DNA of 64,000 nucleotides from Puniceicoccaceae bacterium K14 (GTDB taxonomy: Bacteria > Verrucomicrobiota > Verrucomicrobiia > Opitutales > Opitutaceae): positions 1 to 64,000 of the forward strand of contig JAKYXN010000025.1 in NCBI GenBank assembly GCA_022538095.1. Reading direction: 5' to 3'. Both the position numbers and the translations under genes were made by a program. Positions 10,874 through 17,645 of this stretch are shown here, piece after piece (position 1 is the first letter of the stretch; each line of letters begins with the position of its first letter). Below the pieces are notes generated by a model. The model searched no databases. It was given only the letters and a program-made list of their open reading frames with translations, and was not told the DNA's origin.

Positions 10874-11710
10874 ATGACTCCCGCTCGAATAGCTCTTTTA
10901 ACAACTACTGCGATGGCGGCCTTTGCCGGAAATTCCTTGCTGTGTCGTATCGCCCTTAGAGATACAGCGATCGATCCAGCGAATTTTACGAGTATTCGAA
11001 TAATCTCAGGAGCTCTCACTCTTTGGTTTTTGGCCAGTCTCAAAACATCCTCCCCAAAAGAGAAAGGAAACAATGTCTCCGCCCTCGCCCTATTCGCTTA
11101 CGCAGCTGGCTTTTCCTACGCATATATCAATTTAACTGCAGCAACCGGAGCTTTGATTCTTTTTGGAACCGTACAAACAAGCATGATCAGCTACGGCCTT
11201 TGGTCCGGAGAGCGACTGAAAAAACTGCAACTTGCAGGCCTCATATTTGCGTTCGCAGGGCTAACGAGTCTTTTACTGCCAGGCCTCTCAGCGCCTCCAT
11301 TAAAAGCCTCAATACTGATGATAATCTCTGGCATTGGTTGGGCTATCTACTCAATAAGGGGTAAACGCGTGACCCAGCCAACGGTAGTCACTGCTGGAAA
11401 TTTCCTACGAGCTATTCCTATCACGATAACATTGAGCCTCGCTACGTTAAATCGTGCGTCAATGGATACACAAGGAATCATCTATGCCATCTTATCGGGT
11501 GCCCTTGCATCAGGAATTGGATACGTTATTTGGTACGCTGCTTTACCTGCTCTAAAAGCAACAAATGCAGCCACAATTCAACTCAGCGTACCGGTCATTG
11601 CGGCTTTCGGGGGAATCCTATTCCTCAATGAACCGATTACAGTACGATTCATTCTGGCTTCAATCGCCGTTCTTGGAGGAATCGCTCTTGTCATTCGCAA
11701 GAATAATTAA
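10874..11710 (+). CDS. EamA/DMT-family transporter
   Basis: A 278-residue inner-membrane protein with about ten hydrophobic segments in two homologous halves, the EamA (drug/metabolite transporter) architecture. The first half starts LLTTTAMAAFAGNSLLCRIAL with the usual small-residue first helix followed by FTSIRIISGALTLW. The second half repeats the pattern at about residues 145-275 and ends ASIAVLGGIALVIRKNN. It could export amino acids, nucleotide-sugar precursors or toxic metabolites, and the substrate cannot be told. The ATG at 10874 immediately precedes the first helix. It is separated by 32 bases from the convergent sigZ gene. Confidence 0.9.
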   Translation: MTPARIALLTTTAMAAFAGNSLLCRIALRDTAIDPANFTSIRIISGALTLWFLASLKTSSPKEKGNNVSALALFAYAAGFSYAYINLTAATGALILFGTVQTSMISYGLWSGERLKKLQLAGLIFAFAGLTSLLLPGLSAPPLKASILMIISGIGWAIYSIRGKRVTQPTVVTAGNFLRAIPITITLSLATLNRASMDTQGIIYAILSGALASGIGYVIWYAALPALKATNAATIQLSVPVIAAFGGILFLNEPITVRFILASIAVLGGIALVIRKNN

Positions 11711-11742: not shown

Positions 11743-12312
11743 CTAACAGTCATCACAGCAACCGTTGCGATTCGGCTCGTATTCAACCATTTTACCGCGA
11801 CTATCGAACTGAAATTGACAACACGCTTTCAACATTTCTTCCAAAGTTTTACGAGCTCTTTGTATCCGAGATTTAGCTCCAGAGAGTGAAATCGACTCCT
11901 GCGTCGCAATATCTTTCTGAGCCACTCCTTCGAATTCATAAAGAGTCAAAGCTCGCCGCTGTTCTCGCGGCAGTTTTTCAATCAACACGTCCAAGCATCC
12001 AGCAATTTCAGTTCTTGCTTGCTCAGCATCGCTTTCGTTTGCCTCCACAGATTCATCAAGTTCACTCTGCGTCTCTCGTTTCCTGCGATAGAAATCCGCC
12101 ACGGTATTCCGCGTAATTTGAAAAACCCACGATTCCAATCGCGACGCTTTGTGTAGTGTATCTAGTTTAGAATGGATACGCAGAAAAACGATTTGCAAGA
12201 CATCGTCTACATCCGCTTCTGGCTTAATACGCGAATGCAAAAATTGGCGGAGCCGGTCACTCAACTCCAACCAGATTTTTTCTGTTTTATCCTTCCTCGA
12301 TTCGGGGCTCAT
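11743..12312 (-). CDS. sigZ: RNA polymerase sigma factor SigZ
   Basis: A 189-residue ECF-type sigma factor. Region 2 is seen at about residues 9-85 (FLHSRIKPEADVDDVLQIVFLRI, LESWVFQITRNTVADFYRRK), a variable acidic linker spans 86-115, and region 4 lies at 117-165 (LPREQRRALTLYEFEG, a helix-turn-helix, then LSGAKSRIQRARK). The tail holds five Cys (CC at about 165 and CCDDC at the end), as I recall for SigZ proteins, and could bind metal or sense redox state. No classical anti-sigma gene is adjacent. Instead a 14-Cys peptide is coded two bases upstream on the same strand, so both should share one mRNA. Confidence 0.92.
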   Translation of the reverse strand: MSPESRKDKTEKIWLELSDRLRQFLHSRIKPEADVDDVLQIVFLRIHSKLDTLHKASRLESWVFQITRNTVADFYRRKRETQSELDESVEANESDAEQARTEIAGCLDVLIEKLPREQRRALTLYEFEGVAQKDIATQESISLSGAKSRIQRARKTLEEMLKACCQFQFDSRGKMVEYEPNRNGCCDDC

Positions 12313-12314
12313 TA

Positions 12315-12455
12315 TTAACAGCAGCTTTTAACCTCATCCTTCTTCGGATGACAGCAAGACTGCGAATCGCAACAACACGTGCAACAGCATTTACATACGC
12401 AGTAATTTTCTTCTTCGGTACAGCACTTCTTCACATTTTTGATTTCTTCACTCAT
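12315..12455 (-). CDS. cysteine-rich 46-residue peptide
   Basis: Read directly from the minus strand, this small gene begins MSEEIKNVKKCC and ends in KSCC. It has 14 Cys in 46 residues, arranged as CC, C-x-C, CCC, CCC, CC and a terminal CC, with one His and acidic/lysine-rich spacers. There is no signal peptide. The composition is metallothionein-like, and it could bind thiophilic metals such as copper, zinc, cadmium or arsenite, or respond to thiol oxidation. Its stop is separated by two bases from the sigZ ATG, giving near-certain translational coupling, and SigZ itself ends in a Cys cluster. I do not know a named family. A TATAAA box sits about 50 bases upstream on the minus strand. Confidence 0.75.
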   Translation of the reverse strand: MSEEIKNVKKCCTEEENYCVCKCCCTCCCDSQSCCHPKKDEVKSCC

Positions 12456-12780
12456 TTTTTGTCATTTCGGTTAATTGTTAAAAATCGGACTAAACGATTG
12501 TCCTTTATACCATAGACGCAACTGAGACAGAAAAGACGCACTATAAACGGATGGCATCAAATTATAGGAGCCATAACCAATTTCAAATATCGTCGCTGCA
12601 AACCGAACTCTCGTTCTGCAATCGCACATAACCCTTGAAAACCACAGCTTTTTTGAGGAACGTTCAGGCAATCTAACCATAAAAACCTCTAAGATTTCAG
12701 CCCAAAACTTAATTTCATGGAAAAATCATCCATTCTTCTAGTCAGAGCTGGAATGAGGCCAAGCTAATGGACATCACACG
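12456..12780. other. divergent promoter region between Cys-rich peptide and MDR gene
   Basis: These 325 bases separate divergent genes. A TATAAA (minus, 12509..12504) could be part of the peptide-sigZ promoter. A 69-codon minus frame (12471-12680) has no start context and no recognisable sequence and is not called. Nothing else stands out. Confidence 0.4.
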
Positions 12781-13752
12781 ATGAAAGCCATTTCATTACA
12801 AAAATACGGCTCCACCCAAAACCTAATGCTCGTCGACCGAGACGTCCCGTCTCCGGTTGATCGGCAAGTATTAGTTAAAATTCATGCTGCCTCAATAAAC
12901 GACTGGGAATGGGCGATAACTCAGGGGAGTCCTTTCTACATCCGACTCCTTTGTGGGCTTCGCAAACCGAAGTTCGCAGTTCTGGGTGTAGACATTTCAG
13001 GTACGATTGAAGCCGTCGGCCCAAACTGCGAGCGGTTCAAAGAGGGAGACCGTGTCTTTGGAGATCTTTCCGATTGCGGATTCGGAAGTTTCGCGGAATT
13101 CGCGAGTGTCTCCGAAACTCATTTGTCCCATTTGCCAGAAAATACTTCGTTCGAAGCTGGAGCCGCCCTGCCCCACGCGAGCCTCCTTGCACTACAAGCT
13201 TTCAAACTTTTCGAAGGGCTTCAGCCTCAGCACAAAGTTTTAATAAACGGAGCTGGTGGCGGCGTAGGCACAATTGGGATACAAGTCGCTAGGTCTATGG
13301 GAATTCAACACGTCTCAGGAGTGGACAACGCTAGCAAACTCGAAGGACTCAAGAAACTCGGCTTTGACGAAGTGATAGATTACCAAACTACAGACTTCAC
13401 GAAAACTGGCGAAACCTATGACCTCATCATTGATGCAAAAACGAATCGCTTGCCTCACGCGTATCTGCGGGCATTAAATCCGAATGGGCACTACGTCAGT
13501 ATCGGCGGGAAAGCTCGGTTTTTAATTCTAACACTTATAGCCGGAACGGTCGCAAAGCTCGGTAGCCAAAAGAAACTGCAAATTCTAGGTCTTAAACCAA
13601 ACAAAGGCTTGGAGGAAGTCGCGGCCCTAGTTGAGTCAGGAAAACTGGCACCGGTGCTAGACGAAACCTATTCACTCGCAGATACAGCCAAAGCAATCAG
13701 CCGATTTGGAAGTGGGAAGCATTTGGGTAAAATCATCGTAACCCCCTCTTAG
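12781..13752 (+). CDS. zinc-independent MDR oxidoreductase (quinone oxidoreductase-like)
   Basis: A 323-residue NAD(P)-dependent medium-chain dehydrogenase/reductase. The N-terminal GroES-like part (1-120) contains MKAISLQKYGS, VKIHAASINDWEW and VLGVDISGTIEAVGPN. The Rossmann part has the glycine motif KVLINGAGGGVGTIGIQVAR at about residues 153-172. The catalytic-zinc ligands and the structural zinc Cys cluster of alcohol dehydrogenases are missing, which points to the quinone reductase / zinc-free branch. The C-terminus SGKHLGKIIV is typical. It probably reduces quinones or enones. It stands alone and precedes the MFS gene by 145 bases. Confidence 0.92.
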   Translation: MKAISLQKYGSTQNLMLVDRDVPSPVDRQVLVKIHAASINDWEWAITQGSPFYIRLLCGLRKPKFAVLGVDISGTIEAVGPNCERFKEGDRVFGDLSDCGFGSFAEFASVSETHLSHLPENTSFEAGAALPHASLLALQAFKLFEGLQPQHKVLINGAGGGVGTIGIQVARSMGIQHVSGVDNASKLEGLKKLGFDEVIDYQTTDFTKTGETYDLIIDAKTNRLPHAYLRALNPNGHYVSIGGKARFLILTLIAGTVAKLGSQKKLQILGLKPNKGLEEVAALVESGKLAPVLDETYSLADTAKAISRFGSGKHLGKIIVTPS

Positions 13753-16820: not shown

Positions 16821-17645
16821 ATGATAACGGCAAAAAGTAAAATCTACAAAGTCATTGCGACTTCATTCGCAGGGATAACCTGTCTGCTTACTAGCCTCTC
16901 GGCTCAAGTAATTGACAGTTCATTCGCGAATTTTTCCACACACAACACAAACCAATCGATCACGTTTACGTCAGGCGCAGTATCGAGTTCCAATCCGGCA
17001 GTTACCATCGGAGGTACAGACAACGATATTACAGTTGAAGGCACGGCTGATTTATCCAGCGGAGCTTTTCAGATGTCAGGCCATACAAATGGTAACACCC
17101 TCTCTATTACCGGAGGAATCCTCGGCCAACTTCAGCTGAATAGTGGTCTTGATACGACGACTATATCCGGAGGGGAAATTGCAAGTATCGCCCTCGGAAA
17201 TAAAGCAGGAGTGACCGTAAACGGAGGAAAAATCCTCGGCAATCTACAAGCGACTGGTTCCAGCTCAGCGGCGACCATAAACTCAGGAATATTCCTCGGT
17301 GACGTAAACGTCTCGAACAACAGCACGCTCGATATTCTCGGGGGATCATTCGACCCGAACTCAACTCTTTCCGTAGTCGGGAGCTCAGTTGTAAATATTG
17401 CTGGAAGCAATTTTTTACTGGACGGAGAAATCATTCCACTAGACTTCATACCATCGACCAACGCCGGTTTATTAACCGGTACCTTAGCTGACAATAGTTC
17501 GTTCGAAATGTCGGTAGATGTTAACAATGGAGGCGTGATCAATCTTACGGCAGTCCCAGAGCCTTCTACCGTAGCTGCAATAATCGCAGCTGCCGGTTTA
17601 CTATTGATTTCAAACCGTAAGCGAAAGCGTGCTGTAATAGTTTAA
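16821..17645 (+). CDS. PEP-CTERM sorting domain protein
   Basis: A 274-residue exported protein. Residues 1-29 form a signal peptide (after LLTSLSA). The body is rich in Gly, Ser, Thr and Asn with short recurring units such as TISGGEI, VNGGKI and TINSGIF, which predict a repeated beta-roll or beta-helix stack. The C-terminus has VPEPSTVAA (about 245-253), a membrane segment and a basic tail NRKRKR: the PEP-CTERM sorting signal that an exosortase would process. No exosortase is in the window. In Verrucomicrobia such proteins are linked to extracellular polysaccharide export. Its ligand or function is unknown. A strong terminator follows. Confidence 0.88.
   Translation: MITAKSKIYKVIATSFAGITCLLTSLSAQVIDSSFANFSTHNTNQSITFTSGAVSSSNPAVTIGGTDNDITVEGTADLSSGAFQMSGHTNGNTLSITGGILGQLQLNSGLDTTTISGGEIASIALGNKAGVTVNGGKILGNLQATGSSSAATINSGIFLGDVNVSNNSTLDILGGSFDPNSTLSVVGSSVVNIAGSNFLLDGEIIPLDFIPSTNAGLLTGTLADNSSFEMSVDVNNGGVINLTAVPEPSTVAAIIAAAGLLLISNRKRKRAVIV

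Follow-up and report, generated by a model that had tools for sequence, protein, structure and literature searches.

The window analysed here, a stretch of 64,000 nucleotides, carries directly in front of the gene of a SigZ-family ECF sigma factor a very short open reading frame for a cysteine-rich peptide. This arrangement raises the question of what the peptide does. The sequence-only reading of the locus had offered two alternatives, a metal or thiol sensor that binds SigZ or a metallothionein-like target of SigZ, and of these the second was found to be the better supported. We consider it probable that the two genes form a self-activated SigZ stress operon and that the first gene product is a metallothionein-like sink for As(III) or soft metals. 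The features of the locus are collected in Table 1.

Table 1. Features of the peptide-sigZ locus and other features mentioned in the text (positions in the window, or in the locus where one is named)
Feature	Position	Strand	Basis
Cys-rich 46-aa peptide gene (14 Cys), first in operon	12315..12455	-	ORF and same-position peptides in L063, L064, L180, L184, L188, L243
sigZ, ECF sigma factor, SigZ family	11743..12312	-	NF007215 and TIGR02959
SigZ C-terminal Cys module: C164-C165, beta-hairpin, C185-C186-x2-C189	11746..11823	-	alignment of 55 SigZ proteins and AF2 model
Predicted SigZ-dependent promoter, TGCGTCTTTT-N12-CGTCTA	12513..12540	-	sole zero-mismatch site in window and own genome
EamA-like transporter (convergent)	10874-11710	+	
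PIG3-type quinone oxidoreductase (divergent)	12781-13752	+	
Secreted-looking 274-aa protein	16821-17645	+	PEP-CTERM sorting signal, by eye
Marinifilum 84-aa protein, locus L126	3569-3823		
Marinifilum 84-aa protein, locus L128	2042-2296		
Marinifilum 84-aa protein, locus L139	3569-3823		

The gene arrangement held up as it had been read from the sequence. The peptide has the translation MSEEIKNVKKCCTEEENYCVCKCCCTCCCDSQSCCHPKKDEVKSCC, consists to 30% of cysteine, and its stop codon is separated from the ATG of sigZ by two bases (12313-12314). We considered whether this ORF could be a chance or non-coding frame. It is below the length of standard gene callers, which miss such peptides for this reason; the window copy has no clear Shine-Dalgarno sequence, and no database family contains it. 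Against this, no other ORF of 30-120 aa in the window has 20% cysteine or more. In Markov-simulated windows the count of such ORFs per 64 kb was 0 (order 1) or 0.03 (order 3), and an ORF with 30% cysteine never appeared. ORFs of this kind occupy the same position in seven loci, with nearly all TGY codons in frame and both synonyms in use; in the window peptide TGT and TGC occur seven times each, and the other two frames together hold one TGY. The cysteine content is beyond chance, and a chance frame is extremely improbable.

In composition the peptide is metallothionein-like. It is small and cysteine-rich, with only six hydrophobic residues including the start methionine, and has no hydrophobic core. 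The bacterial metallothioneins SmtA and MymT are likewise small, soluble and cysteine-rich, with few hydrophobic residues, and are induced by metals. The window peptide differs from them in its CCC runs at 30% cysteine, in being encoded together with an ECF sigma factor, and in matching no Pfam family even at E 1. Searches of Pfam and NCBIfam up to this threshold, bacterial metallothionein families included, assigned it to no family, and the six other peptides matched no Pfam family. A PDB search gave nothing meaningful. With tblastn only weak composition-type matches besides the gene itself were found in 57 relatives, and no match was found among plasmids.

The genes on both sides of the operon lie on the opposite strand. 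As had been read before, no anti-sigma gene adjoins the operon in the window, and no arsenic gene adjoins it either. Elsewhere in the window the secreted-looking protein of Table 1 ends with VPEPSTVAAI...RKRKR.

At least seven genomes, from three phyla, carry the pair. Scanning GTDB genomes with a SigZ alignment yielded L063, a Pirellulaceae MAG whose SigZ is 58% identical to that of the window, and L064, a MAG filed as Acaryochloris with a SigZ of 59% identity and a BicA bicarbonate-transporter gene on the same contig. L180, L184 and L188 came from a search within the L063 family, and L243 from one within the order. Other Opitutae, suggested earlier as the place to look, turned out to be the wrong one: the SigZ-like proteins that belong to the same GTDB family and order, at about 32-42% identity, had no Cys peptide at their loci, and the sisters are in Planctomycetes and the cyanobacterial MAG. 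The closest SigZ clade consists of the window protein and three others at 54-59% identity (Verrucomicrobia, Planctomycetes and the cyanobacterial MAG), and the peptide stands directly before sigZ in all four. Its loss from close relatives that keep sigZ, named beforehand as the observation that would speak against a functional pair, was thus not seen. In L063 and L064 the Cys-rich ORF stops two bases before the sigZ start or overlaps it by one base. The L180 peptide (53 aa, 16 Cys) overlaps sigZ by ATGA.

In the SigZ tree the peptide-linked proteins fall into two separate groups. Clade A (window, L063, L064 and L180; support 100/99) has peptides with CC at or next to the end. The second, planctomycete group (clade B: L184, L188 and L243) lies inside a 99/97 clade together with L242, at whose locus no Cys peptide was found; its peptides of 58-65 aa contain CCxPxGCC repeats (L184, 58 aa with 16 Cys; L188, 64 aa with 15 Cys; L243, about 65 aa). 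The tree forces at least two changes in the presence of the peptide. Across all peptides the cysteines in CC and CCC clusters are kept and little else, so that homology between the two clades is unproven.

The DNA upstream of the pairs can hardly be aligned save for one element, GTGCGTCTTTT...CGTCTA, which is conserved before the pair in L063, L064 and L180; the motif was found upstream of all seven pairs. In the window the distance from its CGTC to the peptide ATG is 59 bases, and a 5' leader of about 50 bases is predicted. The -10-like CGTC fits ECF promoters. Searching 80 SigZ loci (581 kb) of many phyla with TGCRTCYTTT-N11-13-CGTC gave 76 sites in 65 loci, whereas the reversed pattern gave none and 200 permuted patterns averaged 0.04 sites; the spacing between the halves was exactly 12 bases at 70 of the 76 sites. 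At the level of whole genomes, those of the window, L063 and L064 each contain the exact motif a single time, always before peptide-sigZ. When R was allowed at position 4, the window genome gave one match and the control also one, so that the position of the motif matters more than its count. Four further sites appeared at two mismatches, the same number as in the control, with no arsenic gene beside them. The background of the looser pattern is high in single genomes, and weaker regulon members in the window genome can therefore not be listed. From the co-occurrence of motif and sigma factor across phyla we infer that SigZ itself reads this motif.

The genes behind the motif point to arsenic. 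At 93 motif sites the next gene was arsM in 35 cases, sigZ in 13, DUF2703 in ten, Cys peptide plus sigZ in seven, arsI in six and an ArsP-type permease in six; the remaining 16 were other genes, frame-broken or cut by a contig end. The seven peptide rows represent six genomes, and L243 is outside this tally. Representatives of the targets were named by curated models (NF008823, arsenite methyltransferase, 318-363 bits; NF041414, ArsI/CadI; Pfam ArsP_1; Pfam DUF2703), and the remaining genes were assigned to them by BLAST. At one pair (L239, the L188 locus) arsD, arsA and the gene of an ArsE-like thioredoxin come first, followed by the motif, the Cys peptide and sigZ. Here arsA matches TIGR04291 with 797 bits and the thioredoxin matches TIGR00412; the arsD gene, which is cut by the contig end, reaches 74.8 bits with NF033727, below the cut-off of 90. 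The motif mainly precedes arsenic genes, so judged by its targets the SigZ regulon looks arsenical, and the motif marks what may be an arsenic regulon common to the SigZ family as a whole (loci L063-L142, L031-L047 and L180-L202). Some of the genes are not obviously arsenical, DUF2703 is a domain of unknown function, and arsM-type targets could also mean another group 15 element (Sb).

In the peptide genomes of the window's clade no arsM gene above the family cut-off was found, and the peptide seems to occupy there the place that arsM has elsewhere. The best arsM-like gene of the window genome (L237, contig C209) adjoins an apparent radical-SAM gene, as in arsenosugar synthesis, and has no SigZ motif.

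Several other genes were encountered at SigZ loci. Apart from sigZ, only arsM stands behind the motif more often than DUF2703 (Pfam PF10865; L074, L082, L103, L106, L108, L119, L071 and L077), whose proteins have many cysteines and for which an arsenic function is possible. In an Aureispira genome (L167, G338) the ORF behind the motif codes for 55 aa (MKSKVIAILAGTALMAAAFSAFGSSNNSTDSNCCSAESYPTECCDWLSCCSKEAE), with CC pairs and a start resembling a signal peptide; it may be a counterpart of the Cys peptide that is exported. Two Thiotrichaceae MAGs (L105 and L130) have a divergent SigZ-type motif before an unnamed protein of 150 aa (MKLSELINYLEQS... and MKLNQFTDSLQHD...). In Marinifilum a protein of 84 aa with 12 Cys and of no known family is encoded 175-263 bases upstream of sigZ, with no motif nearby.

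The window SigZ passed the cut-offs of both family models (NF007215, 213.1 bits against 212; TIGR02959, 195.6 bits against 168.65). Its five-Cys tail (C164, C165, C185, C186 and C189, all within the last 26 residues) is present as had been claimed, but it is nothing special to this protein: the CC after region 4.2 is invariant in 55 of 55 SigZ proteins and at least two further terminal cysteines are present in 54 of them, which makes the tail, by this alignment, a trait of the family. The peptide partner, in contrast, is limited to the two sub-clades. In the AF2 model (mean pLDDT 89; the pTM of 0.49 does not settle how the domains are arranged) C164 closes the last sigma-4 helix, which is followed by two strands (165-169 and 175-180) and a short helix (185-188). 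Hairpin and terminal helix would bring the two cysteine groups near each other, which is geometrically plausible. Among solved structures found with Foldseek in the PDB, those of ECF sigma factors cover the sigma domains; in the sequence-profile comparison none extends to the Cys module.

SigZ thus probably carries its own thiol sensor. An on-board sensor of this kind would explain the absence of an anti-sigma gene, and the invariance of the tail makes a separate sensor peptide unnecessary. By analogy with CorE, CorE2 and OrbS the tail would most simply be a metal(loid) sensor. In CorE and CorE2 of Myxococcus xanthus (formerly ECF44, now ECF238) a C-terminal Cys cluster senses metal and no anti-sigma factor takes part (PMC8999054, PMC9023288). 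SigZ shares with them the Cys-rich C-terminal domain, but the spacing differs (CC-x19-CC-x2-C around a beta-hairpin, as opposed to C-x4-C-x2-C-x-C in CorE and CC-x3-C-x2-C-x-C in CorE2), as do the arsenic genes behind the SigZ promoter. CorE-like proteins have a C-x-C in the linker between sigma2 and sigma4, where SigZ has a single cysteine, C106, the only one before the tail; SigZ was for this reason not classed as CorE-like. The iron-starvation sigma factor OrbS, which controls siderophore genes and is inhibited by Fe(II), has a C-terminal on-board sensor of four cysteines (PMC9023288), again of the same type and of different spacing.

The following course of events would account for the operon. 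SigZ would recognise TGCRTCYTTT-N12-CGTC before its own operon. As(III) or a similar ion would occupy the Cys module and change the sigma activity, and SigZ would transcribe peptide-sigZ. The small soluble peptide would then bind the thiophilic metal or metalloid, most likely As(III), and by sequestering the ion would both detoxify it and turn SigZ off again. The peptide itself resembles ArsD and the Cys-rich N-termini of ArsM in having vicinal Cys pairs, as found in As(III)-handling proteins; arsM stands behind the same promoter and arsD in the same operon in L239, although the peptide has neither an ArsD nor a methyltransferase domain. Taken from sequence comparison, the peptide is most likely a metallothionein-like trap for arsenic or a similar metal under the control of SigZ.

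Three other readings have to be weighed against this one. The same architecture could answer to a natural signal other than arsenic (Cd, Zn, Cu, Hg, Sb or disulfide stress), a reading that overlaps with the preferred one and differs in the ligand alone. CorE and CorE2, whose ends are rich in cysteine, respond to Cu and Cd/Zn (PMC8999054, PMC9023288), and the names of ArsI/CadI and of SO_0444-like permeases refer to several metals. Yet no other gene stands behind the motif nearly as often as arsM, and one pair has ArsD/ArsA/ArsE-like genes next to it, so another signal is possible without being likely. The peptide could also regulate SigZ directly, as a peptide-sized anti-sigma factor or metal-transfer partner that docks on the Cys module via a shared metal and releases or loads SigZ. 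The tight coupling of the genes (a two-base gap, or the ATGA overlap in L180), the peptide in all four clade A members and the missing anti-sigma gene would fit. Most SigZ proteins, however, have the same module and no peptide, so that SigZ can do without it, and apart from the cysteines the peptides diverge far more than SigZ does, unlike a specific binding partner. We regard direct regulation as unlikely.

The ORF could finally be a polycysteine leader, in which pausing of ribosomes at Cys codons under shortage of thiol or cysteine controls the translation of sigZ. Such control has been proposed for mycobacteria, in which short polycysteine ORFs, their Cys codons contiguous, precede a gene of an operon (Canestrari et al. 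2020, cited in PMC9031893). The runs of Cys codons just before sigZ, the terminal CC of clade A and the scant Shine-Dalgarno sequence before the window sigZ are in line with such a role. Unlike the mycobacterial leaders, the peptide ORF is not leaderless, given the distance of the motif from the ATG, and its cysteines are spread through the sequence. Shine-Dalgarno-like sequences precede the peptide in five homologues (L063, L064, L180, L184 and L188). At the junctions no unusual RNA structure that would hide the downstream start was found; the z scores were +0.6 to +1.2 in five of six and -1.75 in L064. The clade B peptides with their repeats look like proteins selected for spacing. A leader function is unlikely.

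The metallothionein-like sink is therefore the reading we retain. The idea of a metal- or thiol-related pair has gained support, and in a more specific form than the sequence alone allowed, through the conservation of the pair, its SigZ-type promoter and the SigZ relatives beside arsenic genes behind the same promoter. The pair had been thought undescribed, and no published description was found in the literature searched, which did not include many subscription papers. The same search returned nothing on a promoter, regulon or signal of SigZ or on a link between SigZ and arsenic, and no paper in it connected SigZ or any ECF sigma factor with arsenic genes of the arsM type. The promoter and the arsenic link are new as far as this literature goes. 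An ECF sigma factor with a Cys-tail sensor plus a metallothionein-like effector would be a variation on a known type; a larger novelty is possible if the peptide is an off-switch of the sigma factor. We would then have a new control of sigma factors, in which an on-board arsenic-sensing ECF factor is encoded together with a thiolate peptide that is As(III) sink and off-switch at once through metalloid exchange with the Cys module, a metallothionein replacing the anti-sigma factor. This extension is speculative and we hold it to be doubtful.

Bacterial arsenic responses of the textbook type run via ArsR repressors. If the reading given here is true, a widespread sigma family without a known role would become a candidate regulator of the arsenic response in many phyla, and the SigZ family would gain a promoter and a sensor module, both predicted, as well as a regulon open to testing. 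It would also add unannotated sigma-controlled metallothionein-like peptides that were recruited at least twice.
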